NCBI GenBank assembly: GCA_003096535.1
Contig: QEKJ01000002.1
Coordinates: forward strand, 1 to 64,000
Origin: Agathobaculum butyriciproducens
Lineage (GTDB): Bacteria > Bacillota > Clostridia > Oscillospirales > Butyricicoccaceae
DNA length: 64,000 nt
Direction: 5' to 3'
Below are positions 4,884 through 60,480 of the stretch, one piece after another. The position numbers were made by a program, and so were the translations under genes. Within the stretch, counting starts at the first letter, position 1. Every line of letters begins with the position of its first letter. The notes beneath the pieces were generated by a model. The model was given only the letters and a program-made list of their open reading frames with translations. It was not told the DNA's origin and ran no database searches.

Positions 4884-5483
4884 TCAGTTGTTTGGCTCGA
4901 TCGCGTAATCGTAGATCTCGTGTCCGCTTTCGAGCACCTTGCCGTCCACGGTGATGAGCACTGCGGTTGCGCCGCGCGCCTGCGCGAACGTGTTGACCAG
5001 TGCGTAGATCTTGAGCGTTTCACCGGCGGTGCCGGAGGCGCGGATCGCCTCGCCGAAGGCGGCATTCATGTCGAGCGTGAGCGTGCCGTTCTCGAGCGAC
5101 GAGGACTGCACCTTGACGCCCTCGGGCAGCGAGCCTGCGGCGATGAGCGCGTCCACGAGCGACTGGTCGGAGTCGTCCTTCGCGTCTGCGCCGGTCGGCG
5201 TGAGCGTTTCACCCTGTTCATCCGGAACGTAGATCGTGACCGACTCCGTGCCGCTCGGATTGGGGTTTTCCGGCTGTACGGCAGGTTCATTTGTCTTGGA
5301 ATCGGACGGTTTGCCGGAATTGCTGTCGTCCGGCGTTTCCGGCGTGGTCGGGTTCTCCGGCTCGGTAACAGCAGGCTTTTCCGGCTCATCGGCGGGCTTG
5401 CTGCGGACATATCCATATACACAGGCTGCGGCGACTACTGCAATGATCGCAATTACGGCTATAATAACTTTTGAGCGTTTCAT
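4884..5483 (-). CDS. GerMN-domain membrane-anchored protein
   Basis: 199 residues, AAAGGAGG before ATG 5483. Residues 6-26 form a transmembrane anchor or signal; VAAAC could be a weak lipobox. A Pro/Glu/Ser/Asn-rich linker (about 30-80) leads to a GerMN domain at ~82-195: VTIYVPDEQGE, SLVDALIAAG, and LDMNAAFGEAI followed by LKIYALVNTFAQ. GerMN domains occur in spore germination protein GerM and in secreted lipoproteins of Firmicutes, possibly binding cell wall. Located outside the membrane. It stands alone with its own promoter, converging on thiE. Confidence 0.88.
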   Translation of the reverse strand: MKRSKVIIAVIAIIAVVAAACVYGYVRSKPADEPEKPAVTEPENPTTPETPDDSNSGKPSDSKTNEPAVQPENPNPSGTESVTIYVPDEQGETLTPTGADAKDDSDQSLVDALIAAGSLPEGVKVQSSSLENGTLTLDMNAAFGEAIRASGTAGETLKIYALVNTFAQARGATAVLITVDGKVLESGHEIYDYAIEPNN

Positions 5484-5512
5484 TGTAAACGCCTCCTTTC
5501 TCTTACAAGCCT

Positions 5513-5541
5513 ATTGTATCAAGCCGGACGGGAAAATACAA
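5513..5541 (-). promoter_or_regulatory. Sigma-A promoter of the GerMN gene
   Basis: On the minus strand TTGTAT (5536-5541), a 17-bp spacer, then TACAAT (5513-5518), about 30 nt upstream of the start codon. Confidence 0.75.
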
Positions 5542-5559
5542 GGGATATACCGTTAACAA

Positions 5560-6545
5560 ACGGCGGCTTTTTGCCCCGGTTTGGGCGGCAGTTTTTTTCA
5601 GCACCGGCTGAGCGGGGTGCCCGAACTGCGTCAGCGTGTTCGCCCCTTCCGGGCGGCAGCCTTTTGTCTGCACCGCCCCAGCGGGGTACTTGAACCGCGC
5701 ACGCGGTTCACCCTATCCGGGCGGGGAGTTTTTCGCTGAACCTCAGCGGGGATTCGCCGCGCCCCGCGGCGGGGCAAGAGGGTAGACACCAAGGTTTCTA
5801 CCCTCTTAACTCCCACTTCCTTTGGGGAGAGTCTGGCGCAGATTGCCGACATGTGACCGCTTCGAAATGAGGAACGGCAGAGGATTTTTTCTACCGTATG
5901 GGAGCACAGTGTGCTCCCATGTCCCGACATATTCGCAGCGTCAGATACCGTACTGCTACACATGCAGTTTCATCTAAGCAGGCGCGGCATAGCAGTGCCG
6001 CGCAACTCTTTAACGCGTTATACCGCACGGTACCTGCGGATTAGGCGTTTGGTACAATTTATCCTCGCAGACCCTGTCTATTATAACGCGCTCACGAATT
6101 GCGCGGCACGGTTATGCCGCGCCTGCGCAGAGTAGCCTGTATGTGTAGCGGTACGCTGTCTGTGAACTGCGAACAGGTTACGAAAGACACGGAAGAAAAA
6201 ATCCTCTGCCGTTCCCCTTTTCGGAGCGGTCACATATAGGCAATCTGCGCCAGATTAGGAAGCAAGGGAAAGGTAGGAGTCCAAAGAGGAAGGGAAACCG
6301 CAGGTGTCCCTTCCTTTTTGCCCCCGCCGCGGGGCGCGGCACGTTCCCGCCGTCCGCAGACGGCGAATCCCTCGCTGAGGTTCAGCGAAAAACTTCCCGC
6401 CCGTTAGGGGCGAACCCGCCTGCGGCAGTTCGCGCACCCCGTTCAACCGGTGCAGAGAAAGGAGCCGCCCCGTTAGGGCGAACCCGCCTGCGGCAGTTCG
6501 TGCGCCCCGCTCAGACGGTGCAGAAAAATTTTTTCGAAAATTTTC
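5560..6545. repeat. Giant nested palindromic intergenic element, copy A
   Basis: No credible gene. The ~985 bp form a mirror array around an apical loop near 6041-6064. Paired modules include 5726-5758 with 6362-6395 (contains TTTTTCGCTGAACCTCAGCG), 5831-5867 with 6219-6255 (TCTGGCGCAGAT), 5871-5897 with 6189-6215 (GGCAGAGGATTTTTTCTACC, 27 bp), and 5983-6004 with 6099-6120 (GCGGCATAGCAGTGCCGCGC). GC-rich units of ~68 bp lie at both outer ends. The same modules recur in copies B-E. It lies between two divergently transcribed genes. Confidence 0.88.
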
Positions 6546-6611
6546 AAAAAAGTTGACCATTCATGGTCAATTTTCACCTCCATCCGGCATAGGGTTGAAG
6601 GAGGTGACGCA

Positions 6612-7334
6612 ATGACGAACATTGCATTCAAACAGGCACACAGCGGCAACTACCGCCGAGCCGCGCGCGGAAAGGAGGATATCCGCTATCTGGTGATTCA
6701 CTTTACGGCGAACGACGGCGATACCGCGAAAAATAATGCGGATTACTTCGCTCGGGCGGAGATTTCGACCTCAGCGCACTACTTTGTGGACGAAAACGAG
6801 GTCTGGCAGTCGGTTCGCGACGCGGATATCGCATGGCACTGCGGCACGCGCGGCGTCTATTTCCACCCGTACTGCCGCAACGCGAACAGCATCGGCATTG
6901 AACTGTGCAGCCGCAAAAACGGCGAGAAATTCTACTTTATGCCCGAGACCGTGCGCCGGGCACAGGCGCTGACGCGCGAACTGATGGCGAAATATGGTAT
7001 TCCGCTCGAAAATGTTGTGCGCCACTACGATGTTACGCACAAAAACTGTCCTGCGCCGTTCGTCGAGAGCGCATCCGCGTGGACAGTATTCAAGCAGGGG
7101 TTACAGAAAAAGGAGGAACCTGACATGACCGAAGCCGAGGTAAAGAAGATCATCGAGAGCACCCGCAGGACGTACAACAGCGTTTCCGCCGTTCCCGCGT
7201 GGGCGAAGCCGACTGTCGAGAAGCTGACGCGCAAGGGCTGGCTGCTTGGCGATGAGCACGGAAAGCTCGACCTGACCGAAGAGCTGCTCCGCACGCTGGT
7301 TATCAACGACCGCGCAGGAATCTACGGCGAATAA
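6612..7334 (+). CDS. N-acetylmuramoyl-L-alanine amidase (Amidase_2)
   Basis: 240 residues, AAGGAGGTG before ATG 6612. Residues 20-150 form the zinc amidase domain: VIHFTA (His30), SAHYFVD, IAWHCG, SIGIELCS, then RHYDVTHKNCPAP with His138 and Cys146 as further zinc ligands. It cleaves the MurNAc-L-Ala bond of peptidoglycan, as in phage endolysins and T7-lysozyme-like amidases. The C-terminal ~90 residues (WAKPTVEKLTRKGWLLG) look like a small wall-binding or cap domain seen in prophage amidases. There is no signal peptide and no phage gene nearby, so it is probably a domesticated endolysin. Confidence 0.92.
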   Translation: MTNIAFKQAHSGNYRRAARGKEDIRYLVIHFTANDGDTAKNNADYFARAEISTSAHYFVDENEVWQSVRDADIAWHCGTRGVYFHPYCRNANSIGIELCSRKNGEKFYFMPETVRRAQALTRELMAKYGIPLENVVRHYDVTHKNCPAPFVESASAWTVFKQGLQKKEEPDMTEAEVKKIIESTRRTYNSVSAVPAWAKPTVEKLTRKGWLLGDEHGKLDLTEELLRTLVINDRAGIYGE

Positions 7335-7340
7335 GCGCAA

Positions 7341-7374
7341 AAGAGGCTGTAAATTAAATTTACAGCCTCTTTTT
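7341..7374 (+). terminator. Terminator between amidase and MATE gene (bidirectional)
   Basis: AAGAGGCTGTAAATT pairs with AATTTACAGCCTCTT; TTTTT follows on the plus strand and the minus strand also ends in T-rich sequence, so it can serve both convergent genes. Confidence 0.9.
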
Positions 7375-7375
7375 G

Positions 7376-8743
7376 TTACTTTGTATTTTGATAGGTCAAA
7401 CCTTTTTTTCGGATGATAAACAGCTGGATATAGTACGATGCTGCAAGGAATACCGCTGCGAATGTCCACGCGGCCGCGTCCGTGTAGAACAGACCGCGCT
7501 CACCGATGACCCTGGTCAGCAGCAGCGATGCACCCACACGGCCTGCGAACTCGGTCAGACCGGAGAGCATGGGCGCGGTCGTAAAGCCCATGCCCTGCAA
7601 GGCCGAGCGGTAGGTGTGCAGCACATAGGCGGACAGCAAAAACGTGCTCATGACAACCAGATAATCGTACGCGACCGACAGCGCCTCGGCGGCGTTGGCA
7701 GCATCCGCGGAGATGAACAGCGCGACAACGTGACGGCCGAACAGGATCATGCCCGCCGCCAGCAGCGCGGAAAAGCTGAGCGCCAGCACAAGCGTCGAGC
7801 GGACACCCATCCGCACGCGGTCAAGCCGGTTTGCGCCCCAGTTCTGGCCGGTGTAGGTCGAGGCGGCGTAGCCGAACGCGGACGCGGAGCAGTCCATCAG
7901 ACCGTGCAGCTTGTTGGTCGCGGTAAAACCCGCGAGGAACACAAAGCCGCAGGTGTTGATAACCGCCTGCATGATGATGCCGCTGATGACGATGACAAAA
8001 TGCTGCAGCGCAAGCGGCAGACCAAGGTGGCACAGCCGCCGGATCACACTGCTGTCCGGCTGCCAGTCCGGCTTTTCGACGGACGCAGCCGGGATTTTCC
8101 GCAGCGCAATGACGCAGTACGCGAATGCAAACAGCTGCGCGAGCAGTGTCGCGGCGGCAGCGCCCGGAATGCCCCAGCCGAAGCGGATAACGAACAGCAG
8201 ATCGAGCACAATGTTCAGACATCCGGCAGTAAACATGGCAATAAGCGGACTTTTGCCGTCTCCGAGTGCGCGGAGGATCGCCGCTGCCATGTTGTACGCC
8301 ATCGTGATGAGTGTGCCCGCATACATCATGGTTAAATAAATGTGCGCGCCGTCATAGATGTTCTCGGGCGTGTCCAGCAGGTGCAGCAGCCAGCCTGCCG
8401 AGGACACGAACACCACGGTCAGCAGGATGCCGACTGCCGCGCACAGCAGCACGGACATGGTGATGGCCTTGCGCAGTCCCTTCTTATCGTTTGAGCCGAA
8501 GGTCTGCGACACGAGCACGGAAAAGCCTTGCGTCATGGCCTGCACGGTCCACAGCACCAGCCAGTACAGCCAGTCGGTCGCGCCGAGTGCGGCCAGCGCC
8601 TCCACACCGACACCGCGCCCGACGATGGACGCGTCTGCGACTGTGTACAGCTGCTGACCGACATTTGTCAAAATCAGCGGTACGGCCAGTCCGAGAATGA
8701 GTTTTGTCGGACGGCCGACGGTCATATTTGTCTCTCTGCTCAT
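7376..8743 (-). CDS. MATE-family efflux transporter
   Basis: 455 residues with twelve hydrophobic segments. N-terminal signature LILGLAVPLILTNVGQQLYTVADASIVGR and the repeat half at about 240-260 fit the NorM/DinF MatE domains. MATE proteins export cationic drugs or metabolites in exchange for Na+ or H+. AAGGAG lies before the ATG at 8743. The gene follows the PepV gene by 9 bp in the same direction, so it is the last gene of a Crp-PepV-MATE operon. Substrate unknown. Confidence 0.93.
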   Translation of the reverse strand: MSRETNMTVGRPTKLILGLAVPLILTNVGQQLYTVADASIVGRGVGVEALAALGATDWLYWLVLWTVQAMTQGFSVLVSQTFGSNDKKGLRKAITMSVLLCAAVGILLTVVFVSSAGWLLHLLDTPENIYDGAHIYLTMMYAGTLITMAYNMAAAILRALGDGKSPLIAMFTAGCLNIVLDLLFVIRFGWGIPGAAAATLLAQLFAFAYCVIALRKIPAASVEKPDWQPDSSVIRRLCHLGLPLALQHFVIVISGIIMQAVINTCGFVFLAGFTATNKLHGLMDCSASAFGYAASTYTGQNWGANRLDRVRMGVRSTLVLALSFSALLAAGMILFGRHVVALFISADAANAAEALSVAYDYLVVMSTFLLSAYVLHTYRSALQGMGFTTAPMLSGLTEFAGRVGASLLLTRVIGERGLFYTDAAAWTFAAVFLAASYYIQLFIIRKKGLTYQNTK

Positions 8744-8752
8744 ACAATCTCC

Positions 8753-10117
8753 TTACTTTGCCAGTTCGTACATTGCCGCCGCGATGATTTCCGCGTTCTG
8801 CAGCACGCGCTCGATCTCCATGTACTCGTCCGGCTTGTGCTCGCGCACCTCATCGCCGGGGAAGATCGGGCCGAATGCGACAAGGTTCGGCATGGATTTG
8901 GCGTAGGTGCCGCCGCCGATGCTCTTGAGCTCCGCCTTCTCGCCGGTCTGCTCCTCATATACCTTGGACAGTCTGCGGATGAGTTCGCTTTCGGGCGGCA
9001 TGTAAATGGCCGCCGCGTGCGTCATTTCGGTTTCGGTAAAGCCGCCGAGCGTGAAGCCGCGCGACAGACGCGGGTATACGAGATCGTATTTCAGGGTGAC
9101 CGGATAGCGCACCGAGAAAACGAGCGACAGCGTTTCCTGCTCAAATTTTGCCACGCCGAGGTTGAGCGTCAGCGGGCCGGACAGCTCATCGCGCATGGCG
9201 AGACCGAGGGACTCACCGTGTACCTCCATGCCGATGCGCTCTGCCACAAATGCCATGCAGTCGCCAAGCTCGCCGGTCAGCGGCAGCTGATTGAGTGCCT
9301 GCGCCAGCCGTCCGATGGCATTTTCGCCCTGCTCCGGGGTCGAGCCGTGAACGGCAATGCCCTCGGCTTCCACGCGGATGCCGCCCGCGATCGGCGTGAC
9401 GGTTACCTTGTCCGCCGAGATTTTGGCAGCCGCGTCCGCCGGACACTGCAGCTCCGCCGCCGCATACGCGGGCGAGATGTTGGAGGCGGCACCGCCCTCG
9501 AACTTTGTCAGGCGGTAATCGCCGGTCTGGTGCAGCTTTCGGCTGTAAGTGCCGTTGAGAATGCCCTTTTCGCCGTTGATGATCGGGTATTCGCCGTCCG
9601 GCGTGAAGCCGTACACCGGCAGCTCGCCGCCATGCGAAACGTACCACGACATATCGCCGCAGCCGGTTTCCTCGTTGGTGCCGAACAGCAGACGGATGCG
9701 CTTGGAGGGGGCAAATCCGGCATCCTTGAGCGCCGCCAGCGCGTAGATGGCCGCCACCATCGGGCCCTTGTCGTCCATCGTGCCGCGTCCGTAAATACGG
9801 CCGTTTTTGATCTCGCCGGAAAACGGCTCGGTCTCGGTCCAGCCGTCGCCGGCGGGCACAACGTCCAGATGACCGAGTACAGCCACCATTTCCTCGCCCT
9901 CGCTGTACTCGCACCAGCCGACACGGTCGTCCATATTGCCGGTCCGGAAGCCCAGCTTTTCGCAGAGCGCAAGCGTTTCGTGCAGCGCACGGGCAGGCTC
10001 ACGGCCGAACGGCGCATGCTCCTCCGGCACGCCTTCCACGCTCGGTATGCGCACGAGCGCGGCAAGACTCTCCAGCAGTTCGTCCGCGTGCGCGCGGATG
10101 TAGGGTTTGCAGTTCAT
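8753..10117 (-). CDS. M20 family dipeptidase, PepV/Sapep type
   Basis: 454 residues, AAGGAGG upstream. Metal ligands of the M20 di-zinc centre are visible: GHLDVVP (His83, Asp85), GTMDDKG (Asp115), NEETG (Glu149/150) and a C-terminal GGTYAKSM block. The lid domain is longer than in ArgE, which is typical of PepV. Such enzymes hydrolyse dipeptides, often with an N-terminal beta-Ala or D-residue, in the cytoplasm. It lies between the Crp-type regulator (27 bp gap) and the MATE exporter, suggesting a peptide-related response controlled by the regulator; the inducer is unknown. Confidence 0.93.
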   Translation of the reverse strand: MNCKPYIRAHADELLESLAALVRIPSVEGVPEEHAPFGREPARALHETLALCEKLGFRTGNMDDRVGWCEYSEGEEMVAVLGHLDVVPAGDGWTETEPFSGEIKNGRIYGRGTMDDKGPMVAAIYALAALKDAGFAPSKRIRLLFGTNEETGCGDMSWYVSHGGELPVYGFTPDGEYPIINGEKGILNGTYSRKLHQTGDYRLTKFEGGAASNISPAYAAAELQCPADAAAKISADKVTVTPIAGGIRVEAEGIAVHGSTPEQGENAIGRLAQALNQLPLTGELGDCMAFVAERIGMEVHGESLGLAMRDELSGPLTLNLGVAKFEQETLSLVFSVRYPVTLKYDLVYPRLSRGFTLGGFTETEMTHAAAIYMPPESELIRRLSKVYEEQTGEKAELKSIGGGTYAKSMPNLVAFGPIFPGDEVREHKPDEYMEIERVLQNAEIIAAAMYELAK

Positions 10118-10143
10118 AACAAAAACCTCCTTAACGGGGTGGA

Positions 10144-10812
10144 TTATTCATCGGATTGGGAATGGTTGAGCACAAAATGGCTCTTTTTGTATGCGATAAG
10201 TCCGTCGCGCTGCATGCGGCTCAGCTCGGCGGACAGCGCACTGCGGTCCACGCCGAGGTAGTCGGCCAGCTGCTGACGGTCGAACGGAATGTCGAACGTG
10301 TCTGAGCCGTGCTGCACCGCCTGTGCGGACAGGTACGACAGCAGCTTGCCGCGCATGGATTTCGGACTTGTGTGGAAGATTTTTCGCGTCAAAAGCAGGT
10401 TTTTCTGCGCGGTGACGTCCAAAAGATTGCGTAAAAGCACACTGTGCGCGCTGTCCTGCGCGGCAGAGGAGAGCAGTGTTTCGCTCGGCAGGAACAGCAC
10501 CTCGGACGGCTCGTCCGCCACAGCAGAGACCATCATGGGCGTGCCGGGGACGCAGGCGTACGTTTCAGCGAATACCGAACCGGGCGTAATGTGATCGAGC
10601 AGCGTCTTGTGGCCCCATGCGTCGCAGCGCTCGATATTCACGCCGCCCGAGAGCAGAATACACAGCGCATGCGCGGTATCGCCGACACGGTAAATCGGCT
10701 GAAATTTGTCAAATTCACGCGTGCAGGCGTGCAGACGGCGCAAAAGCGGGGATAATTCTGCGGTTTCAATGCCGCGGAACAGACCGCAGCGTGCAAGGAT
10801 AGACAGGTTCAT
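10144..10812 (-). CDS. Crp/Fnr-family transcriptional regulator
   Basis: 222 residues, AGGAGG before ATG 10812. Residues 10-125 form a cyclic-nucleotide-binding beta-roll (FRGIETAELSPLLRRL, LLSGGVNIE, GSVFAETYACV); 145-215 form the Crp winged HTH (MRGKLLSYLSAQA, DRQQLADYLGVDRSALSAEL). The phosphate-binding Arg-Ser pair of true cAMP receptors is not evident, and no N-terminal Cys cluster for an Fe-S centre as in FNR is seen. The gene heads the operon with pepV and MATE. A perfect 6-4-6 palindrome just downstream of its promoter suggests autoregulation. Confidence 0.93.
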   Translation of the reverse strand: MNLSILARCGLFRGIETAELSPLLRRLHACTREFDKFQPIYRVGDTAHALCILLSGGVNIERCDAWGHKTLLDHITPGSVFAETYACVPGTPMMVSAVADEPSEVLFLPSETLLSSAAQDSAHSVLLRNLLDVTAQKNLLLTRKIFHTSPKSMRGKLLSYLSAQAVQHGSDTFDIPFDRQQLADYLGVDRSALSAELSRMQRDGLIAYKKSHFVLNHSQSDE

Positions 10813-10826
10813 ATTTCCTCCTGTTT

Positions 10827-10885
10827 TGTTGTTGGGACAACATACTTTGCCTTCTCAGTATAGTAAGATATGAGCGTAAAGTCAA
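10827..10885 (-). promoter_or_regulatory. Promoter and operator of the Crp-pepV-MATE operon
   Basis: Minus strand TTGACT (10880-10885), 17-bp spacer, TATACT (10857-10862). TGTTGTTGGGACAACA (10827-10842) is a perfect inverted repeat at about +8 to +23, positioned to repress and typical in size for a Crp-family dimer. Confidence 0.8.
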
Positions 10886-11745
10886 GCGGGACACACGAAC
10901 CGCGCAGGCGGTTCGCCCGAACGGGGCGGCAGCTTTTTCAGCACCGGCTGACCGGGGTGCGCGAACTGCGTTAGCGTGTTCGCCCTGACGGGGCGGCACT
11001 CTTTTTCAGCACCGGCTGACCGGGGCATACGAACTGCGTCAGCGGGTTCGCCCCTAACGGGCGGAGAGTTTTTCGCTGAACCTCAGCGGGGGGATTCGCC
11101 GTCTGCGGACGGCGGGAACGTGCCGCGCCCCGCGGCGGGGGCAAAAAGGAAGGGACACCTGCGGTTTCCCTTCCTCTTTGAACTCCTACCTTTCCCTTGC
11201 TTCCTAATCTGGCGCAGATTACCGACATGTGACCGTTGCGAAAAGGGGTACGGCAGAGGATTTTTTCTACCGTGTCTTTCGTAACCGATTCGCAGTGTCA
11301 GATAACGTACTGCTACACAGACCGGAAAGTCTTCGCAGGCGCGACATAACAGTGTCGCGCAACTCTTTGGCACGTTGCACCGCACGGCACCTGCGAATGT
11401 AGGCGTTCGGTAGCATTTATCTTCGTAGGTGCTGTCTATCATAACGCGCTTACGAATTGCGCGGCACGGTTATGCCGCGCCTGCTGGAAGTAGCCGACCT
11501 GTGTAGCAGAACGGTATCCGACACTGCGAATATGTCGGGACACGGGCGCACACTGTGCGCCCCTACGGAAGATGAGCAGTACGCTCGTTCCTTGGCGAGT
11601 CTCAGCTCTGCAAATTTCGCCGTGCCCTCATAGGAAAGGGGTGATCCACAAGAGGGTGGAAACCTTGGTGTCTACCCTCTTGTGCCCCCGCCGGGTAGGC
11701 GGCCCCCCCGCTGGCCCCAGCGGAACCATCTCAAGACAAGAAACA
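10886..11745. repeat. Giant nested palindromic intergenic element, copy B
   Basis: No credible gene. Same modules as copy A: two to three GC-rich end units at 10890-11060, the TTTTTCGCTGAACCTCAGCG module near 11070, the CTGGCGCAGATT module near 11210, GGCAGAGGATTTTTTCTACC near 11252, and core arms at 11339-11365 and 11453-11480 around the apical loop 11399-11421. The right arm is diverged: instead of the GGCAGAGG module it holds the GCGCACACTGTGCGC hairpin and ends with a CAAGAGGGT hairpin near 11650-11690. It lies between divergent genes. Confidence 0.85.
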
Positions 11746-11767
11746 GGATATATAAGGAGAAAACACT

Positions 11768-12463
11768 ATGATTCGCAAAATTATCGAAATCGACAAAGAA
11801 AAATGCAACGGCTGCGGCCTGTGCGCCCACGCCTGCCACGAGGGCGCCATCGGCATGGTGGACGGCAAGGCCACTCTGCTCCGCGACGACTACTGCGACG
11901 GCCTCGGCAACTGCCTGCCGGTCTGCCCGACCGGTGCCATCTCGTTCGTTGAGCGCGAAGCGGCCGCTTATGACGAAGCCGCTGTGCAGGCCAATATGCA
12001 GGCAAAATCTCAGCCGCATACCGGATGCCCGGGCAGCATGGCGCGGAGCATTGAACACGCCTCGGTCAATCAGCCGGCCTCGTTCATTCCGATGCCGAGC
12101 CAGCTGCGCCAGTGGCCGGTGCAGATTAAGCTCGTGCCGGTGAATGCGCCTTATTTTGACGGCGCAAACCTGCTCATCGCGGCGGACTGCACCGCTTACG
12201 CATACGCAAACTTCCATCAGGATTTTATCCGGGGGAAGGTAACGCTCGTCGGCTGTCCCAAGCTGGATGATGTGGATTACAGCGAGAAGCTGACAGAAAT
12301 CCTCCGTCAGAACAACATCAAAAGCGTAACCGTTGTCCGCATGGAGGTGCCGTGCTGCGGCGGACTGGAATACGCCGTCCGCACCGCGCTGCAGAACTGC
12401 GGCAAGCTGCTGCCGTGGCAGGTGAAGACCATTTCCATCAAGGGCGAACTGCTGGACGATTGA
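11768..12463 (+). CDS. 4Fe-4S ferredoxin-type iron-sulfur protein
   Basis: 231 residues; AAGGAG before ATG 11768. Residues 10-60 contain a first cluster motif CNGCGLCAHAC (Cys13, 16, 19, 23) and a shortened second one (Cys43, 49, 53, ending CPTGAI). The remaining 170 residues hold further Cys (GCPGSM, ADCTAYAY, VGCPKLDD, VPCCGGLE), the pattern of clostridial ATP-binding/ferredoxin proteins whose C-terminal half resembles a cysteine-rich redox domain. Probably a cytoplasmic electron carrier or sensor; the partner is not evident. It stands alone, followed by a LacI gene with its own promoter. Confidence 0.88.
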   Translation: MIRKIIEIDKEKCNGCGLCAHACHEGAIGMVDGKATLLRDDYCDGLGNCLPVCPTGAISFVEREAAAYDEAAVQANMQAKSQPHTGCPGSMARSIEHASVNQPASFIPMPSQLRQWPVQIKLVPVNAPYFDGANLLIAADCTAYAYANFHQDFIRGKVTLVGCPKLDDVDYSEKLTEILRQNNIKSVTVVRMEVPCCGGLEYAVRTALQNCGKLLPWQVKTISIKGELLDD

Positions 12464-12493
12464 CCGATTCCTGTCGATTTCACTGATTTGCAT

Positions 12494-12522
12494 TTGCAAT
12501 TTTCGTTCGAAACGTGTAAAAT
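12494..12522 (+). promoter_or_regulatory. Promoter of the LacI operon with embedded operator
   Basis: TTGCAA (12494-12499), 17-bp spacer, TAAAAT (12517-12522). The spacer contains TTTCGTTCGAAA (12501-12512), a perfect inverted repeat in the position expected of a LacI-family autoregulatory site. A further hairpin ACCGCG-CAA-CGCGGT (12582-12596) lies between the promoter and the gene. Confidence 0.72.
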
Positions 12523-12614
12523 AACAAGGTAACACCACAAAGCACCGCAGTCAAATTGTGTGGTGGTGCCTTTGGAATGACACCGCGCAACGCGGTATGT
12601 AGGAGCGAAAATTC

Positions 12615-13637
12615 ATGGCAGTCACTTTGGCAGAAATCGCTGCGCTGGCGGGCGTTTCACGCGGCACGGTGGATCGGGCACTTAACGACAGAGGACGCGT
12701 CGATCCCAAGGTTGCGGCACGCGTGCGCCGCATTGCGGCAGAGCGAGGCTACCGCCCAAACCGTGCGGGACGCATGCTGGCACGTGCGAAAAACCCGATC
12801 AGGATCGGCGTGATCGTCCAGTCGGTCGAGACCATGTTCATGCACACGGTATTTGAGGAGATCGAACGCGCATCGGCGCACTTTACCACCACCGGCGCAG
12901 AGGTGCTCGTGCGGCCGCTGGAGGGCGTCGATGCACAGCAGCAGCTGGACGTGATTGACGAGTTGCTCGAGGCAGGCGTGCAGGGCATCGCGCTTTCTCC
13001 GGCGGAGGACGAGCGGGTGCGCGCCCGTATTCAGGAGCTGTCCGAGCGCATGCCGATCGTTACCTTCAACTCGGATCTGCCGGACTCGGGCCGCCTGTGC
13101 TACGTCGGCGTGGACAATTTCGCGTGCGGACGCATGAGCGCCGGTCTGATGGACCTGCTGCTTGCCGGTCACGGGGAAGTCCTGCTGGTTGCCGGTCAGG
13201 AAAACAACTGGTCGCATCAGCAGCGTGTGGACGGCTTTCAGGCCGAGGCTGCCGCAAATTTTCCCGGTTTGAGCCTGCTGCCGCCGCAGACCTGCGGGGA
13301 CGATCAGCAGCTGGCGCATGATATTGTGTGCCGCGCCGTGCAGGAGCATCCGTCGCTGCGCGGTGTGTACGTTTCGGTAAACGGTCAGCTCGGTGCGTGC
13401 GACGCGCTGCGTGAGCTGGGTTTACAGGGCAAGGTGCACCTGATCTGTCACGATTTGATTCCGGCAAATACGGAGAATGTCCGCCGCGGACTCATCGACT
13501 TCCTGATCGATCAGGATGCCGCCCTGCAGGGCGCCCGTCCGATCGAGCTGCTCATGGATTACCTGCTGGCAGGCGAAAAGCCGGAGACCGACCGCATTCT
13601 TGCGTGCATTGATATCCGCAACCGCTACAACGTGTGA
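12615..13637 (+). CDS. LacI-family transcriptional regulator
   Basis: 340 residues from ATG 12615 (GGAG about 11 nt upstream). The N-terminal HTH reads VTLAEIAALAGVSRGTVDRALN, followed by the hinge helix (YRPNRAGRMLARAKNPIRIGVI) and a periplasmic-binding-protein-like domain of the sugar type (TMFMHTVFEEIE, GIALSPAED, VTFNSDLPDSGRLCYVGVDN). The effector domain resembles ribose/inositol/rhizopine-type sensors. It shares an operon with an alpha/beta hydrolase (8 bp gap) and a GNAT, so it probably responds to a sugar or acylated glycan product. Confidence 0.93.
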   Translation: MAVTLAEIAALAGVSRGTVDRALNDRGRVDPKVAARVRRIAAERGYRPNRAGRMLARAKNPIRIGVIVQSVETMFMHTVFEEIERASAHFTTTGAEVLVRPLEGVDAQQQLDVIDELLEAGVQGIALSPAEDERVRARIQELSERMPIVTFNSDLPDSGRLCYVGVDNFACGRMSAGLMDLLLAGHGEVLLVAGQENNWSHQQRVDGFQAEAAANFPGLSLLPPQTCGDDQQLAHDIVCRAVQEHPSLRGVYVSVNGQLGACDALRELGLQGKVHLICHDLIPANTENVRRGLIDFLIDQDAALQGARPIELLMDYLLAGEKPETDRILACIDIRNRYNV

Positions 13638-13645
13638 GGTGCGCG

Positions 13646-14419
13646 ATGAAAGAGGTTTTGCGGCTCGATCACGGCGTTTTGACATATTTTCCGGCATCAG
13701 CCGGACGGAATAAGCCTGCGCTCATCCTGTGCCCGGGCGGCGGCTACGAATACTGCTCCATCCGGGAGGGCGCACCGGTCGCGCGTGCGTTTGCGCGGGA
13801 CGGTGTGGAAGCGTTCGTGCTCGAATACGACTGCACGGAGGTGCCGCTTGGCGTAAAGCCGCTGCACACGCTGTCCGCGTCTGTCGCCTGGGTGAGAGAA
13901 CATGCGGCACAGCTCGGCATCGCGGCAGACCGCATTGCGGTCGGCGGCTTTTCGGCGGGCGCCCATCTGGCGGGACTGCTGGCGGCGACGTGGCACGACG
14001 CAGACTGGTTTCCCGAGGGCACGGATTTGCAGGCGCACCGACCGAATGCGGCGGTGCTGTGCTATCCGGTGGTCTCGGCGGGAGTGTATGCGCATCGCGG
14101 CAGCTTTGTGCGTCTGGCAGGCGAAAATGCTGCGGAACAGCAGAGGTTTTCGCTCGAAACGCTGGTTTCTGCGCACATGCCGCGCACGTTTTTGTGGCAC
14201 ACCCTGACGGACGCGACCGTTCCGGTCGAGAACACGCTGCTGCTCGAGGCGGCTTTGCGCCGAGAAAATATCAGCCACGAGCTGCACCTGTTCCCGCACG
14301 GCGTGCACGGACTCGCGCTCGCGGATTTGGAGACAGCCGACCCGATGAAAGGGCGCGTGCCCGACCGGCATATAAACCGCTGGCAGGCGCTCTGCGCGGA
14401 ATGGCTGAAGGAGGAATAA
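13646..14419 (+). CDS. Alpha/beta hydrolase, acetylxylan-esterase-like (BD-FAE type)
   Basis: 257 residues. ATG 13646 chosen for the AGGTG just upstream; the LacI stop is 9 bp earlier. Oxyanion loop CPGGGYEY (29-36), nucleophile elbow GGFSAGAHLAG, acid Asp in TLTDATVPVENTL and His in HGVHGLAL. This set matches the BD-FAE / xylan esterase 1 group that removes acetyl or feruloyl groups from hemicellulose, here without a signal peptide, so acting on imported oligosaccharides. The LacI neighbour supports a carbohydrate role. A generic carboxylesterase is the alternative. Confidence 0.88.
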   Translation: MKEVLRLDHGVLTYFPASAGRNKPALILCPGGGYEYCSIREGAPVARAFARDGVEAFVLEYDCTEVPLGVKPLHTLSASVAWVREHAAQLGIAADRIAVGGFSAGAHLAGLLAATWHDADWFPEGTDLQAHRPNAAVLCYPVVSAGVYAHRGSFVRLAGENAAEQQRFSLETLVSAHMPRTFLWHTLTDATVPVENTLLLEAALRRENISHELHLFPHGVHGLALADLETADPMKGRVPDRHINRWQALCAEWLKEE

Positions 14420-14421
14420 CA

Positions 14422-14916
14422 ATGCAGATTCGACACACCCGGCCGGAGGATCTTCCGGCGATGCAGGAAATTTTCGCGGACGCGCGGGCGTTTATGCGCG
14501 AAAACGGCAATCCCGATCAGTGGGGAGACAGATTCCCGACGCGGGAAATGCTGGACAAGGATCTTGCACTGCACCGCAGCTATGTCTGCGAGGACAACGG
14601 CAAAATCGCAGCGACCTTTGCGTTTACGACCGACGGCGAGCCGACCTACCGCGTCATTCGCGGCGGCGCCTGGCTGGACGATGCGCCGTACGGCGTTGTC
14701 CACCGTATCGCGGCGGCAAAGGGCACGCACGGTGCGGCTTCGTTCTGCATGAACTGGTGCATGGAGCAGTGCGGCAACATCCGCATCGACACGCACGCGA
14801 ACAACAAGCCCATGCAGGGTCTGCTGAACAAGCTCGGCTATACCTATTGCGGTGTCATTGAGCTGGAAAACGGGCGCGGAGAACGTCTGGCGTTCCAGAA
14901 ACGAGTGGAAAAGTAA
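14422..14916 (+). CDS. GNAT-family N-acetyltransferase
   Basis: 164 residues, GAAGGAGGA 7 nt before ATG 14422, 2 bp after the hydrolase stop. MQIRHTRPEDLPAMQEIFADA is the typical GNAT beta1-alpha1 start; HRIAA is a reduced acetyl-CoA motif A, and DTHANNKPMQGLLNKLGYTYCG forms motif B. The pattern resembles uncharacterised RimI-like enzymes of Firmicutes. It is the third gene of the LacI operon; substrate unknown. Confidence 0.9.
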   Translation: MQIRHTRPEDLPAMQEIFADARAFMRENGNPDQWGDRFPTREMLDKDLALHRSYVCEDNGKIAATFAFTTDGEPTYRVIRGGAWLDDAPYGVVHRIAAAKGTHGAASFCMNWCMEQCGNIRIDTHANNKPMQGLLNKLGYTYCGVIELENGRGERLAFQKRVEK

Positions 14917-14930
14917 GTAAGAAACAGCAA

Positions 14931-14969
14931 ACGGCATACCGGAGAGAATCTCCCGGTGTGCCGTTTTTT
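14931..14969 (+). terminator. Terminator of the LacI operon
   Basis: ACGGCATACCGG pairs with CCGGTGTGCCGT (one G-T) around a GAG-AAT-CTC tip, followed by TTTTTTAT. Confidence 0.88.
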
Positions 14970-14996
14970 ATTTCTGAACTTTGATAAAATTGAAGA

Positions 14997-15025
14997 TTGA
15001 CTTTAATATAATTTAATATTATAAT
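14997..15025 (+). promoter_or_regulatory. Promoter of the DUF2089 gene pair
   Basis: TTGACT (14997-15002), 17-bp AT-only spacer, TATAAT (15020-15025); GGAAG then precedes the GTG start at 15054. Confidence 0.85.
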
Positions 15026-15053
15026 GAAGTTACAATGAAAGGAAGTGATAGCC

Positions 15054-15359
15054 GTGGCAATCGAGGTAATGCCGGAGTGGCTTGCATCGCTGGACGAGGA
15101 GGACGTGTCGTTCATCAAAAAATTCGTGCTGGCGTCGGGGTCGCTCAAGGAGGTCGCGGGCATTTACGGCGTGACCTACCCGACCGTGCGCCTGCGTCTG
15201 GACCGTCTGATCCAGAAGATCAGGCTTGGCGAGCAGGCGGACGAGGAGCCGTATATCGCGCTCATCAAGCGTCTTGCGGTCAAGGACAAGCTGGATTTTG
15301 ACACGGCGAAGCTGCTCATCAACGAGTACAAAAAGCTGAGAGAGGGGAATAAATCATGA
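15054..15359 (+). CDS. DUF2089 family protein
   Basis: 101 residues. The GTG at 15054 is 8 nt after AGGAAG; a GTG at 15045 overlaps the ribosome site. Residues 3-100 match DUF2089: PEWLASLDEEDVSFIKKFVL, GSLKEVAGIYGVTYPTVRLRLDRLI, an HTH of the sigma-4 type. The usual N-terminal zinc ribbon of longer DUF2089 proteins is absent, a shorter form common in Firmicutes. Its stop overlaps the next start (ATGA), so it is probably coupled with the downstream membrane protein. Confidence 0.88.
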   Translation: MAIEVMPEWLASLDEEDVSFIKKFVLASGSLKEVAGIYGVTYPTVRLRLDRLIQKIRLGEQADEEPYIALIKRLAVKDKLDFDTAKLLINEYKKLREGNKS

Positions 15360-15730
15360 TGATTGCAACGGTTTCTACAATTATTTCGCTGATTTTTCTG
15401 ATCGCGTTTGTCGCGGCAATGATTATTTTGCAGGTCTATCTTTCCAGACGGAAGAGCAAACTGCCGGGACTGGTACTGCCTGCCATCACGTTTTCGGGGG
15501 AGCTGTTCATCCTGCTGAACGTGGTGACGAATGTGGTGATGACCTCGGCGGCTGACAATGCGGTTGGCGGAGTGGATTCGTACAGCGTGTTCGTGACGGT
15601 GCTCAACACGGTGCTGACACTGCTCGTTATCTCCATGCCGACCATCGTGCTGCTGGTAATCTACTTCCTCTGTCGCAGAGGGATGAACCGCAAAAAGCAG
15701 ATCGAGAAGATGAATATTCAGGATTTGTGA
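15356..15730 (+). CDS. Small three-helix membrane protein
   Basis: 124 residues beginning in the ATGA overlap. Hydrophobic segments at about 4-28, 38-60 and 78-105; short basic loops (LSRRKSKLP) and a Lys/Arg-rich C-terminus facing the cytoplasm. No family recognised. Coupling to a DUF2089 HTH protein suggests a regulator/membrane-partner pair, similar in architecture to other DUF2089-linked membrane proteins, but the function is unknown. Confidence 0.72.
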   Translation: MMIATVSTIISLIFLIAFVAAMIILQVYLSRRKSKLPGLVLPAITFSGELFILLNVVTNVVMTSAADNAVGGVDSYSVFVTVLNTVLTLLVISMPTIVLLVIYFLCRRGMNRKKQIEKMNIQDL

Positions 15731-15734
15731 GTTT

Positions 15735-16742
15735 TTCGCTTACTTTAAGCGAGGGGATTCGCCGTCTGCGGACGGCGGGGATTTGCCGCGCCCCGCGGCG
15801 GGGAGTGCGCTGACGCCGCGCGGGCGTACAAGAGGGTAGACAACCTGCGGTTTTCCACCCTCTTGTAAATCTCCCCTTTTCCCTTGGAGGGCACGGTGGT
15901 GATGGGAGAACTGAGACTATAAAGGAACGGCAGAGGATTTTTTCTGCCGTAGGGGAGCACAGTGTGCTCCCATTTCTTTACCTATTCACAGTGTCAGATA
16001 CCGTTCTGCTACACATATGGTTTACTCTACGCAGGGCGCGGCATAGCAGTGCCGCGCAATTCTTTAGCGCGTTATACCGCCCGGCACCTTCGAATTTAGA
16101 TGTTCGGCACAATTTATCCTCGCAGGTGCTGTCTGTAATCTCCAGACTAACGAGTTGCGCGGCACTGCTATGCCGCGCTTGCGGAAATTTAACCGCCTGT
16201 GTAGCAGAACGGTATCTGACACTGCGAACAGGCTGCGAAAGACACGGTAGAAAAAATCCTCTGCCGTACCCAATTTCGGAGCGGTCACATATAGGAAATC
16301 TGCGCCAGATTAGGAAGCAAGGGAAAGGTAGGAGTTCAAAGAGGAAGGAAAACCGCAGGTGTCCCTTCCTTTTTGCCCTCCGCCGTGGGTACGGCGCCGT
16401 CCCCGCGGCGGGCGCCGCGACGCTCCCGCCGTCCGCAGACGGCGAATCCCCCCCGCTGAGGTTCAGCGAAAAACTCCCCGCCCGTCAGGGGCGAACCCGC
16501 CTGCGGCAGTTCGTGTGCCCCGCTCAGCCGGTGCAGAAAAGGAGCCGCCCGGATAGGGCGAACCCGCCTGCGGCAGTTCGTGTGCCCCGGTCAGCCGGTG
16601 CAGCAAAAGGAGCCGCCCGTCAGGGGCGAACCCGCCTGCGGCAGTTCGTGTGCCCCGGTCAGCCGGTGCAGCAAAAGGAGCTGCCCGTCAGGGTCGAACC
16701 CGCCTGCGGCAGTTCGTGTGCCCCGGTCACCTTGTGCCGAGA
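15735..16742. repeat. Giant nested palindromic intergenic element, copy C
   Basis: No credible gene. Left arm starts with a shortened TTTTTCGCTT module and has no 68-bp unit; then the CAAGAGGGTAGACA hairpin (~15830-15868), GGCAGAGGATTTTTTCTGCC (~15926), GGGAGCACAGTGTGCTCCC (~15953-15972), core arms 16034-16060 and 16153-16182, apical loop ~16097-16118. The right arm repeats the modules in mirror order and ends in four tandem 68-bp units. Located between convergent genes. Confidence 0.87.
16473..16741. repeat. Four tandem 68-bp GC-rich units
   Basis: Units begin at about 16473, 16541, 16609 and 16677 with an exact 68-bp period for the last three. Each holds GGCGAACCCGCCTGCGGCAG and a CCCCGGTCAGCCGG block. 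Copy A has two such units at each end, showing that copy number varies between elements. Confidence 0.9.
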
Positions 16743-16777
16743 AAAGAAAAGCACCGCAGAATTGCTTCTACGGTGCT
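16741..16777 (-). terminator. Terminator of the nitroreductase gene
   Basis: Minus strand AGCACCG-T-AGAA-GCAA-TTCT-G-CGGTGCT followed by TTTTCTTTTC. Lies exactly at the border of the repeat element. Confidence 0.9.
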
Positions 16778-16791
16778 CAAAGTATGCACTT

Positions 16792-17334
16792 TTACTCAAA
16801 TCGCAGCAGCGTATCGACATCCTTACGCGCCGGCGCCTGCGGGTCCTGTGCCGGATGACCGAGCGCGATGAGCGCGGCCACTTCCTGACCCTCGGGGATT
16901 TCCACGACCTTGGCAACCTCGGCGGGATCGTAAATGCCCATGATGACCGTGCCGAGACCGAGCGCGTGCGCGGCAAGGCAGAAGGTCTGCGCGGCAACGC
17001 CCGCGTCAAAGGACTGCCAGTGGGCAGCAAGCGGGGTGCTGAACGAGCCGTCGCGCTCGTAGCCCGAGCGACCCTTGATCATGGTCAGCACGACCAGTGC
17101 CGGTGCACCGTGCGTGGTCTTCTGGTTGTAGGCAAAACCGAGCATGCAGTTGTCGGCCAGCTTGTCCTTCTTTTCCTTGTCGGTCACAACGATGTAGCGC
17201 GCGATCTGCGTATTCTTCCAGCTCGGCGCAAAGGCGACAGCTTCAACGATCTGACGAACCTCGTCCTCGGTCACAGGCTGCTCGGTGAACTTGCGGATGC
17301 TTCGGCGGGTTTTGATACATTCCAGTGCTTCCAT
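16792..17334 (-). CDS. Nitroreductase-family flavoprotein
   Basis: 180 residues, AAAGGAAG before ATG 17334. The FMN-binding start RRSIRKFTEQPV, APSWKNTQ (Ser/Lys/Asn contacts), LAAHALGLGTVIMG and the C-terminal LIALGHPAQDP are diagnostic for the NfsB/FRase-like nitroreductase family. Members reduce nitro groups, quinones or flavins with NAD(P)H. Cytoplasmic. It has its own promoter 40-60 bp upstream, so it is not simply the tail of the YjbQ operon. Natural substrate unknown. Confidence 0.93.
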   Translation of the reverse strand: MEALECIKTRRSIRKFTEQPVTEDEVRQIVEAVAFAPSWKNTQIARYIVVTDKEKKDKLADNCMLGFAYNQKTTHGAPALVVLTMIKGRSGYERDGSFSTPLAAHWQSFDAGVAAQTFCLAAHALGLGTVIMGIYDPAEVAKVVEIPEGQEVAALIALGHPAQDPQAPARKDVDTLLRFE

Positions 17335-29880: not shown

Positions 29881-30770
29881 AGGTGGGGCACACGAACTGC
29901 GTCAGCGGGTTCGCCCTGTCCGGGCGGCAGCCTTTTTCTCTGCACCGGCTGAGCGGGGTGCGCGAACTGCGTAAGCGTGTTCGTCCCTAACGGGCGGAGA
30001 GTTTTTCGCTGAACCTCAGCGAGGGGATTCGCCGCGCCCCGCGGCGGGGGAGTGCGCTGACGCCGCGCGGGCGCACAAGAGGGTAGACACCTGCGGTTTC
30101 CACCCTCTTGTGAATCTCCCCTTTCCCTTTGATAGCCTGGCGCAGATTGCCTACATGTGACCGCTTCGAAAACAGGGGAACGGCAGTCGGGTTACCGTTG
30201 CGTGTCTTTCGTGAAATATTCGCAGTTCACAGATAGCGTACTGCTACACAGACCGGAAAGTCTTCGCAGGCGCGGCATAGCAGTGCCGCGCAATTCGTGA
30301 GCGCGTTGTGATAGACAGCACCTACGAAGATAAATTGTACCAAACGCCTAATTCGTAGGTGCCGTGCGGTATAACGTGTTAAAGAGTTGCGCGGCACTGT
30401 CATGCCGCGCTTGCGTAGATGAAACCACATGTGTAGCAGAACAGTATCTGACACTGCGAACATGTTGCTCAAGAGGACGGACTCCGAAGGTAGTTCGTCC
30501 GCAGCAGAGAAAAAATCCTCTGCCGTACTCCTTTTCGGAGCGGTCACATGTCGGCAATCTGCGCCAGACTAACTAATAAGGGAAAGGTAGGAGTTCAAAG
30601 AGGAAGGAAAACCGCAGGTTGTCCTTCCTTTTTGCCCCCTGCGGCGGGCGCCGCACTCTCCCGCGCTCCGCAGAGCGCAACTCCCCGCTGAATCGCAGCG
30701 AAAAACTTCCCGCCCGGAAAGGGCGAACACGCTCACGTAGTTCGTGTGCCCCGCTCAGCCGGTGCAAAAA
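29881..30770. repeat. Giant nested palindromic intergenic element, copy D
   Basis: No credible gene. Best preserved apex: GCACCTACGAA (30318-30328), a 23-nt loop (30329-30351), TTCGTAGGTGC (30352-30362), 11 perfect base pairs. The loop is the reverse complement of that in copies A-C, so this copy is inverted. Core arms at 30270-30292 and 30387-30410; the GGCAGAGG module appears only on the right, near 30510-30528; end units lie near 29890-29990 and 30715-30770. Between convergent genes. Confidence 0.87.
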
Positions 30771-31652
30771 TTAAGTTAAACTGTTTTTCCGATAATGCGA
30801 CGGCGAAACGCCATACACAAGCCGAAACCGCTTGATAAAGTAGCTGAAATTATCAAATCCGACGCGAAACCCGACCTCCATGACCGGCAGATCGGTCTCA
30901 CGTAGCAGACGCGCCGCCTGCTCGATTCGCAGGGAATTGATATGCTGGGTGAATGTCCTTCCGAAATTATCCCGGAAAAAGGTGCTGAAATACTGCGGCG
31001 ACAATCCAAACTCCGCTGCAACCGCCGACAGCGAGAGCGGTTCGGTGAAATGCTCACCGAGGTAGCCGACGATCTCCTTAAGCTGCTGCGCCTTATAGTC
31101 CGCGCCCGGGCGCATTTGATGTCCGACAAGTCTGCCGTACTGCGCGCACACCGCCACGATGCCGAGCAGCGCGGCCTTCACGGCAAGCTGACAGCCGGGC
31201 GCCTGCACCTGCCACGCGCGCACGATCTGTGCGAGCAGCGCACGTATCTCGCTCTGGCCGGGTTCACCGGCGCGAATGCAGGTGCCGAATCGCAGCCGTC
31301 CCTCGGCGAGCGGCGACAGCAGCGCGAATTCGCTCTGGTCGGCGCGCGAAAACTGCAGGAAATCCGCCGCAAACACGAACGAACGGAACTGATTTTCCCG
31401 TCCGGCGGCACGAATTTCGTGCAATTCCTCACCGGCGGCGAAGAACACATCGCCGTGGGTGCCCTCGTAGGTGTGGTCAGCGATGGTGAGCGAAACGTGG
31501 CCCGCGTCCACCGTGATGATTTCCAGCTCCGGGTGCCAGTGATAGGGGATAAAATCGCTGTCATCGGCCTCGCTGCCGTCCAGCGCGGGATAGATCTGGA
31601 ACGGGAACGCCAGTGTGCCGTGCTCTTTTTTTTCTCGGCGGGCTGCATCCAT
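30771..31652 (-). CDS. AraC-family transcriptional regulator
   Basis: 293 residues from ATG 31652 (AAAGGA 9 nt upstream; longer version lacks a ribosome site). Residues 25-100 form a cupin sensor (YHWHPELEIITVDAGHVSLTIAD, GDVFFAAGEELHEI); 195-290 a double HTH (EPLSLSAVAAEFGLSPQYFSTFFRDNFG, LPVMEVGFRVGFDNFSYFIKRFRLVYGVSPSHYR). Divergent from iolB and adjacent to the inositol genes, so it is a plausible inositol or derivative sensor, though inositol loci usually use IolR/LacI-type repressors. Its final codons run into the end of repeat element D. Confidence 0.92.
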   Translation of the reverse strand: MDAARREKKEHGTLAFPFQIYPALDGSEADDSDFIPYHWHPELEIITVDAGHVSLTIADHTYEGTHGDVFFAAGEELHEIRAAGRENQFRSFVFAADFLQFSRADQSEFALLSPLAEGRLRFGTCIRAGEPGQSEIRALLAQIVRAWQVQAPGCQLAVKAALLGIVAVCAQYGRLVGHQMRPGADYKAQQLKEIVGYLGEHFTEPLSLSAVAAEFGLSPQYFSTFFRDNFGRTFTQHINSLRIEQAARLLRETDLPVMEVGFRVGFDNFSYFIKRFRLVYGVSPSHYRKNSLT

Positions 31653-59918: not shown

Positions 59919-60480
59919 GAGGATTGAAAATGGAGAATGGAAAATGAACGTACAGATGAAACAATGTCTCCGGTTGGGTTTAACATAAGGGGGGTATTGG
60001 GGAACGGCGGGGTGAGGGCACCCCGCCCTACGGATAGTTGTTAAATGATATTAATGGATTATATTCGTAGGTGCCGTCTGTAATAACGAGCCAACGAGTT
60101 GCGCGACACGGGTATCCTCCAGAGGACCTTCTCTTGCCCTTCGGGCAATTCACCTTGGCGCACCCTGCGGTAAAGTTTGTTGGTAAAGTGGAATCCGCAG
60201 GTGTTGTCCATAACAACGCGTAAACGAGTTGCGCAACACTGTTATGTTGCGCCTGCGTAGAGTAAACCATATGTGTAGCAGTACGGTATTTGACACTGCG
60301 AATATGTTGAGAAACATACGGAAGAAAAATCCTCTGCCGTATTCCAATTTCGGAGCGGTCGCCGGTCTCTGGTCTGCGCCAGACTACGAAATAAAGGGAA
60401 ACGGGAGTTAAGAGGGTAGAAACCGCAGGTGTCTACCCTCTTGCCCACCGCCGCGGGTGCGGCGAACCCTGTGCAGAATA
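59919..60480. repeat. Degenerate copy E of the palindromic element plus repeat remnants
   Basis: No credible gene in 59858-60669. A solo end of the AATGGAGAATGG repeat lies at ~59922-59946; GGCGGGGTG-AGGG-CACCCCGCC hairpin near 60007-60028; then TTCGTAGGTGCCG (apical arm, ~60064) without its partner and a second CCGCAGGTG arm at 60195. From 60215 the right-arm modules follow in the usual order: GCGCAACACTGTTATGTTGCGC, GAAGAAAAATCCTCTGCCG (~60321), CGGAGCGGTC, TCTGCGCCAGA (~60372), and the AGAGGGTAGA hairpin (60411-60441). The 68-bp end units are missing. Confidence 0.78.

Follow-up and report, generated by a model that had tools for sequence, protein, structure and literature searches.

Long palindromes are known as hazards to the chromosome. 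In Escherichia coli, a 246-bp interrupted palindrome is described as forming a hairpin in every replication cycle and as being cut there by SbcCD (PMC3315005). The organelle DNA of Volvox carteri is reported to contain short palindromes lying within other palindromes, which build larger and more elaborate elements that are seen as selfish (PMC2670323). For bacteria, REPs are given as palindromes of 20 to 40 bp, single or in doublets (PMC3733652), with which RAYTs are obligately associated (PMC3116915, PMC2817692), and the largest REPIN cluster described in the available text comprises four tandem REPINs across 700 bp (PMC3116915). For GTAG repeats, Firmicutes are not among the phyla listed, and the name is absent from the source text (PMC3733652).

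The window analysed here, a 64,000-nucleotide stretch of the Agathobaculum butyriciproducens genome, carries members of a family of giant nested palindromes whose nearest counterparts are the Volvox organelle palindromes in working and BIMEs in genome setting. With the Volvox elements it shares the placement of one palindrome within the loop of another (here 15 of 15 inserts) and presence or absence at an orthologous site (here copy B only); the Volvox palindromes average approximately 50 nt and lie in organelles, whereas the Agathobaculum element measures approximately 1 kb, has a fixed module order and lies in a bacterial chromosome (PMC2670323). The GC clusters of yeast mitochondrial DNA are alike in being small mobile palindromes that merge and shuffle and whose stems are more conserved than their loops, but they are on a 42-nt scale, and kilobase mirror arrays do not feature in the sections of that account available to us (PMC4478555). 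REPs, BIMEs and REPINs resemble our family as dispersed extragenic hairpins with mosaic composites, inverted doublets and compensatory hairpin changes (PMC3116915, PMC2817692). The REPIN cluster is, however, tandem as described and not a nested mirror array like ours (PMC3116915); REPs are accompanied by a RAYT, while the Agathobaculum genome has no Y1_Tnp match (PMC3116915, PMC2817692); and the full element, at approximately 0.6 to 1.2 kb, falls outside the REP size range, to which an insert of approximately 43 bp comes close (PMC3733652). GTAG repeats have their likeness in hairpins that start with GTAG, found here as insert hosts and as module M4, but the M1 and M7 hairpins are untagged and the genome again lacks a Y1_Tnp match (PMC3733652). 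The element is thus set apart from REPs and REPINs by size and by the RAYT comparison, and from MITEs by its ends, which are ragged by module and show no steady duplication by eye at copy B or at the copy in locus L052. We found no account of the element in the literature, although one may exist.

The features of the window are as follows.

5560..6545, plus strand: copy A, a full palindromic element, oriented by its loop and flanked by a Germane-domain gene (minus) and an amidase gene (plus)
6041..6062, plus strand: apical loop of A, interpreted as a spacer separating two inverted half-elements
5776..5807, plus strand: module M1 of A, left arm, a terminator-like hairpin AAGAGGGTAGA..TCTACCCTCTT
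6283..6319, plus strand: module M1 of A, right arm, of a different type, GGAAGGGA..TCCCTTCC plus a T run
5982..6003, plus strand: module M7 of A, left arm, a local hairpin with compensatory forms family-wide, which hosts the 43-bp insert elsewhere
10886..11745, plus strand: copy B, flanked by divergent crp-like (10144-10812, minus) and 4Fe-4S (11768-12463, plus) genes
11399..11420, plus strand: apical loop of B
15735..16742, plus strand: copy C, whose right end carries a tandem series of four outer modules (about 66 bp each)
16095..16117, plus strand: apical loop of C
29881..30770, minus strand: copy D, in the orientation opposite to A-C
30330..30351, minus strand: apical loop of D
60193..60480, minus strand: copy E, a half-element only, non-palindromic; the strand is given in the sense in which the inner end reads CACCTGCGGAT
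60113..60157, minus strand: hairpin insert CAAGGTGAATTGCCC..GGAGGATA at E, within a chimeric host hairpin and adjoining a half-element fragment at 60063-60109

Aligned with their own inverse, copies A (5594-6528; 69% identity, E 1.5e-98), B (11099-11723; 62%, E 1.3e-34), C (15727-16478; 67%, E 8.8e-72) and D (29932-30775; 68%, E 3.1e-86) are clearly the mirror arrays that the initial annotation had taken them for. In the folding check that it proposed, A folded as RNA (z -25.9) and D folded as single-strand DNA (z -25.4) both do far better than dinucleotide shuffles, with 0 of 20 shuffles as good in either case. The outer arms can be very unequal, as in C, where the four tandem modules on the right have no equivalent on the left. 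E, by contrast, had been read as a degenerate mirror array (59998-60480), but the self-inverse scan reports no palindrome of at least 250 bp there, and the region instead consists of one half-element and, pointing the same way, a piece of a second, the two being linked by a hairpin. Gene neighbours vary, being divergent (A, B), convergent (C, D) or co-directional (L052). The window also contains a fluoride riboswitch at 55234-55309 on the plus strand (RF01734, 45.9 bits).

The family is dispersed well beyond the window. With 40 of 120 candidates scored, copy A has at least 113 blastn matches in its own genome, itself among them; they fall on both strands because the element is a near-complement of itself. 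Within 794 kb of this genome, made up of the window plus 40 stretches mostly picked around copy-A hits, copies A to E match 57 stretches totalling 35.5 kb, 30 of them full copies (at least 600 bp and with the loop) and 27 partial, half or short. The arm statistics below use 29 full copies, leaving out L056:9498, whose apex was misplaced by the script. A scan for palindromes of at least 450 bp with at least 60% identity and E <1e-20 finds 29 in the hit-centred part of the own genome (574 kb). Two further own contigs (220 kb) and the congener G017 (800 kb) yield none, and congeners besides G017 yield one (298 kb). One stretch (L084:9464-11251) was set aside, its self-match being weak (56%) and running partly across open reading frames.

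The loop TTAGGCGTTTGGTACAATTTAT recurs among copies and gives each an orientation, as had been proposed. Its right-side pattern (at most 3 mismatches) turns up 24 times in the own genome but not once in 24 congeners, the reversed pattern gives no hits, and the exact loop is absent from the genome_contigs collection, from which the own record is possibly left out. None of the 24 places lies on the own contigs C3, C7 and C8 (about 426 kb) or on C2 past 31 kb, so that full copies may be unevenly distributed over the chromosome. With copy A as the query, 18 of 24 congeners give matches, all of at most 113 bp (at most 11 candidates scored per genome) and nearly all at the M1 hairpin region and its outer neighbours, while 0 of 15 genomes from other families match. 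The short congener matches and the absence of the loop pattern thus place the giant element, as observed, in its own species only, and its outer modules genus-wide. Over the best segment, the Na/Pi cotransporter of the window shares 83-86% identity with 12 of 13 Agathobaculum loci and 80% with the remaining one; the values are 81% for one Butyricicoccus faecihominis record and 70-71% for other Butyricicoccus records. A phage or plasmid origin was considered and dropped: copy A has no blastn match in the phage and plasmid collections at E 1e-5, and three exact element patterns occur 0 times in viral_contigs.

Each arm is modular. From outside to inside, it consists of a variable number of tandem modules of approximately 66 bp, small GC hairpins, M1, M2 to M8 and GGCACCTGCGAAT, and several of the module positions occur as discrete types. 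Arms are also found alone. Among 17 mostly partial stretches, 8 end within two changes of GGCACCTGCGAAT (3 of them exactly) without a partner arm, and unrelated AT-rich DNA lies beyond the inner end; the inner ends of L054, L047 and window copy E are weaker forms of GGCACCTGCGAAT. Solitary arms with a recurring inner end show the arm to be a unit, two of which are placed head to head in the full element, on either side of a spacer of approximately 20 nt.

Smaller hairpins within the arms show how the element can lengthen at a small scale. The local hairpin of M7 exists in 27 distinct forms, in which pairing is kept by paired changes: 191 of 216 pairs are standard, compared with 160.5 +/- 3.6 in shuffles (maximum 173), in a set that was collected by likeness to a paired consensus and that includes four insert remnants, which lower the pair count. 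A hairpin doublet of approximately 43 bp (CAAGGTGAATTGCCC..) was located by pattern at 15 places and, by eye, lies inside the loop of another hairpin in all 15. Its hosts are M7 (eight cases), a GTAG-tagged hairpin (six) and an M7/GTAG chimera (one, window E). The GTAG-tagged host occurs without an insert at 13 places (second pattern), empty M7 forms exist as well, and in the clearest cases, such as L055:9383, filled and empty M7 differ by the insert alone. At the 43-bp scale, therefore, elements grow by insertion of hairpins into hairpin loops; only the 43-bp hairpin was seen as an insert, and never a whole giant element. At L048:13393-13490, a miniature nested palindrome consists of a 43-bp insert around the asymmetric loop AGAGAAGG, all within a GTAG hairpin, and repeats the giant-element architecture at a small scale.

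Hairpins that start with GTAG (GTAGGGTGCG.., GTAGGGGAGCACA..) serve both as insert hosts and as module M4; the tag is missing from M1 and M7. By pattern, such REP-like hairpins number 49 in 730 kb of own loci (L047-L086), 9 in 92 kb of the congener G010, and 0 in both 800 kb of G017 and 35 kb of G012. The loop inserts and the half-elements with their recurring inner end speak for one of the options raised in the initial annotation, that of a growing composite of miniature elements. We consider it probable that the giant palindrome is a selfish, non-coding composite repeat, made of small hairpins and amplified within the species.

The comparison with congeners provides further support for a composite. 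At site B the gap between the crp-like and 4Fe-4S genes is 955 bp here and approximately 92-129 bp in 11 of 11 congener loci with both genes (20 congeners have a crp match, 11 of these carry the 4Fe-4S gene on the same locus and the other 9 are unusable). Copy B is flanked there by crp-ward promoter-like DNA (TTGACT..TATACT) and by the ribosome-binding site of the 4Fe-4S gene, with a possible 5-bp duplication, TCAAG. Nothing like it is present at L050 or L052, and no consistent target-site duplication is apparent by eye. The L052 copy (9004-9775) lies between co-directional spermidine synthase-domain and saccharopine dehydrogenase-domain genes, in a run that also holds two decarboxylase-domain genes; the corresponding site in G017 measures about 119 bp, with poorer junctions. 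The element is thus absent from congeners at one site with clear junctions (B) and at a less clear one (L052). Both flanks occur together in the G017 and G012 stretches for 4 of 57 sites, namely B (in G012), L050, L052 and L069; the flanks of L050 and L052 are divergent, and those of L069 too far apart to use. Sites A, C and D have no joint synteny in the genomes compared, and at site E the upstream gene differs in congeners.

Congeners also arrange similar outer modules around other cores, which again agrees with a composite. G009 and G011 carry inverted half-elements of this kind around cores of a few hundred bp, and in G010 an inverted array of approximately 1.8 kb (L169:4975-6759) is made of half-element-like units of approximately 286 bp, 2.2 of them in tandem on one side, and brackets a gene for a 105-residue helix-turn-helix protein. 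Since the half-elements of congeners bracket other cores or a gene, the loop of the giant element would be a short leftover between two inverted units.

This reading of the apex differs from that of a conserved single-stranded tip on a variable stem, acting as a structured RNA or a cruciform, which had been offered initially. The perfect 11-bp apical stem noted in D is indeed visible, at 30319-30362. Across the family, however, GTG pairs with the left CACCT in 14 of 29 copies, and in the other 15 the stem is broken, the right side being GCC, ACC or ACG while the left still reads ACCT. No compensating change is found on the left side of the broken stems (left CACCT in 28 of 29). The loop does recur, with a mean pairwise identity of 0.81 compared with 0.65-0.79 in the stems, but its supposed conservation exceeds that of the stems just modestly, 49 of 638 windows being more conserved (both values from 30 copies, including L056:9498 with its misplaced apex). 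Shared descent would account for this. A promoter within the loop was also considered and rejected, as a TACAAT-like hexamer, seen by eye, varies across copies. The behaviour of the apex is not that of a conserved functional structure.

A structured regulatory or non-coding RNA, in which a transcript of approximately 1 kb would form a long hairpin with a conserved tip, would explain the very strong folding of A (as RNA) and D (as DNA) and the somewhat conserved loop. The placement of B directly upstream of the 4Fe-4S ribosome-binding site, and of the L052 copy within a co-directional polyamine-type run, means that copies could be transcribed. Yet the compensatory changes that should then link the arms of the copies are missing and the trend across 29 copies is the opposite one; mismatches between the arms comprise 333 G-U and 347 A-C, so that neither strand looks RNA-like; and no copy searched, in the window or in the own stretches L049, L059, L061, L062 and L066, has an Rfam gathering match. 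Given also the broken apical stem, the lack of the loop-side pattern in all 24 congeners and neighbours that are divergent, convergent and co-directional alike, we regard an RNA function as highly improbable.

A host-useful intergenic device, multiplied because it helps expression as a bidirectional terminator or as a stabiliser or insulator of mRNAs, draws on a different part of the arms. The M1 hairpins resemble intrinsic terminators, M1-like hairpins are present in congeners, and positions 5400-17000, genes included, hold 28 terminator-like sites compared with 13.5 +/- 3.9 in shuffles, although such an excess is expected of any hairpin-rich DNA. Terminators need no nested palindromes of 1 kb, and copies are also located in the promoter region of divergent genes and within a series of co-directional ones. 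Such a device therefore appears unlikely as the reason for the family, and a lack of host function is what the palindromes suggest to us.

The most surprising result is that the two arms are less complementary within a copy than between copies. Left arms pair with right arms from other copies at a mean complementarity score of 267, compared with 230 for the right arm of the same copy, and the own-copy score lies below 10,000 of 10,000 permutations (z -4.7; 29 copies). The longest perfect arm-to-arm run averages 17.5 bp within copies (maximum 29; 29 copies) and 25.0 bp between them (maximum 103), with 0 of 10,000 permutations as low as the within-copy value; when arms of different copies are paired, 11% of the pairs have a run longer than 40 bp, whereas none of the 29 copies has one. 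The module types behave similarly. Just one of 29 copies has matching M1 types on its two arms, where 8.8 would be expected, and 5 of 20,000 permutations give a value as low; for M3/4, the arms match in one of 27 classed copies, compared with an expected 7.1, and 30 of 20,000 permutations fall as low. Module classes were set after viewing the alignment, and the arm score and run-length tests are independent of them. The avoidance is absent for M2 (same type in 15 of 30, 14.9 expected) and M7 (6 of 21, 5.7 expected), both from the 30-copy set that includes L056:9498; M8, unclassified in most copies, was left out of the arm-type tests.

Unlike arms fit either a loss of copies that were too complementary or two old arm lineages combined with flips of inner segments. 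In the second case the unlikeness would just be inherited, with no selection involved: a palindrome whose arms had diverged early spread, and recombination flipped its inner segments. The GGAAGG-type M1 is in keeping with this, as 23 of 29 copies carry it on one arm but not the other, and on either side (left 10, right 13). So is its mixed phase relative to the M3 'b' type (same arm in 5, opposite arms in 7), which indicates that arms get reshuffled, and so are the left-left and right-right identities of 0.82, barely above the 0.81 between left and right arms of other copies (30 copies, including L056:9498). The six remaining copies fit less well, as five have two different M1 types and a single one has GGAAGG on both arms. 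Inheritance also sits poorly with perfect tracts of up to 103 bp that are common to different copies while none above 29 bp exists within a copy: the arms of one copy are adjacent, and gene conversion would be expected most often between them. We thus consider purely inherited arms possible but rather doubtful, and favour, with moderate confidence, the loss of too-complementary copies, in view of the long tracts that different copies share and single copies lack. Perfect palindromes that failed to assemble could contribute as well, but such failure would be unexpected at 30-40 bp.

SbcD has an expected length of approximately 400 residues. Nothing in the own genome matches the SbcD model (TIGR00619), for which the control is positive in 13 of 14 genomes, and the frames that contain the genome's seven metallophosphatase matches span 182-262 or >1,000 residues, with none of an SbcD-like size. 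Across 25 Agathobaculum genomes, one passes the cut-off (G018), 16 have weak matches of about 19-25 bits and 8 have none (own genome included); the weak matches suggest that a divergent relative may exist in the genus. The SbcC model (TIGR00618) gives two weak matches in the own genome, the better one (33.9 bits) in a 1,211-residue frame that we take for SMC. Its cut-off is a poor yardstick, since none of the 25 Agathobaculum genomes reaches it and just 1 of 14 controls does; two congeners nevertheless stand out, G018 at 257.6 bits and G002 with a partial match at 149.1 bits. Nor does the SbcD model match in G017 or G012, where the sequence read (800 kb and 35 kb) contains no giant palindromes, showing that a lack of SbcD is not sufficient. 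Canonical SbcCD thus appears to be uncommon in the genus, and going without it can be permissive rather than causal. The E. coli work concerns one engineered palindrome, whereas here there are approximately 30 natural ones in a genome with SbcD unmatched and weak SbcC matches only (PMC3315005).

A transposase acting in trans on a MITE or REP/REPIN-type element, with CACCTGCGAAT or the outer modules as the relevant ends, would suit an element that is dispersed, non-coding, palindromic and intergenic, and in which GTAG hairpins resembling REPs form M4 and surround half-elements (49 in 730 kb). The enzyme expected for the REP/RAYT route was not found, and we set this route aside: Y1_Tnp (PF01797) has 0 matches in the own genome, which is 99.7% complete, with the control positive in 5 of 14 genomes including E. 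coli, and among 19 matches in five congeners the adjoining GTAGGG-type flank pattern is missing in 18 and is a bare pattern match in one. As the outer ends are ragged, no steady duplication was observed and Y1_Tnp, the one transposase family searched, is unmatched in the own genome, we judge mobilisation by such a transposase to be improbable.

In the reading that we consider probable, the unit is the half-element, in which small hairpins follow one another in a set order from the recurring inner end (GGCACCTGCGAAT) to an outer end that is ragged and modular, and two of these placed head to head make the giant palindrome, leaving the asymmetric 'loop' as the spacer between them. Lengthening would occur as small hairpins insert in the loops of existing ones. 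Spread within the genome may proceed as DNA, via hairpin or strand-exchange intermediates, by some enzyme or process. Arms would swap modules between copies and yet stay unlike inside one copy, most likely because copies that are too complementary are unstable, possibly helped by internal flips that swap the arms, and the lack of canonical SbcCD may let imperfect palindromes of approximately 1 kb be tolerated. A bolder proposal, which we hold to be improbable, envisages transposase-free, self-extending hairpins that multiply through strand exchange at replication hairpins, enter each other's loops and join head to head, while the limit that the host sets on long palindromes works as a constant filter and makes the arms of each copy differ.

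For the genome, what stands out is that approximately 30 near-kilobase imperfect palindromes coexist where no SbcD was detected, and that the arm statistics point to a ceiling on perfect pairing. If the transposase-free proposal were true, the family would be a replicated natural record of how much palindromy can be borne by a chromosome without canonical SbcCD (no run >29 bp in 29 copies). It also carries a warning that an asymmetric tip recurring on a long stem is not necessarily a functional RNA or protein site. Both the limit of palindrome tolerance and the growth of nested hairpin repeats become testable through strain sequencing, and the origin and persistence of long palindromes in bacteria can be studied here in a natural setting.
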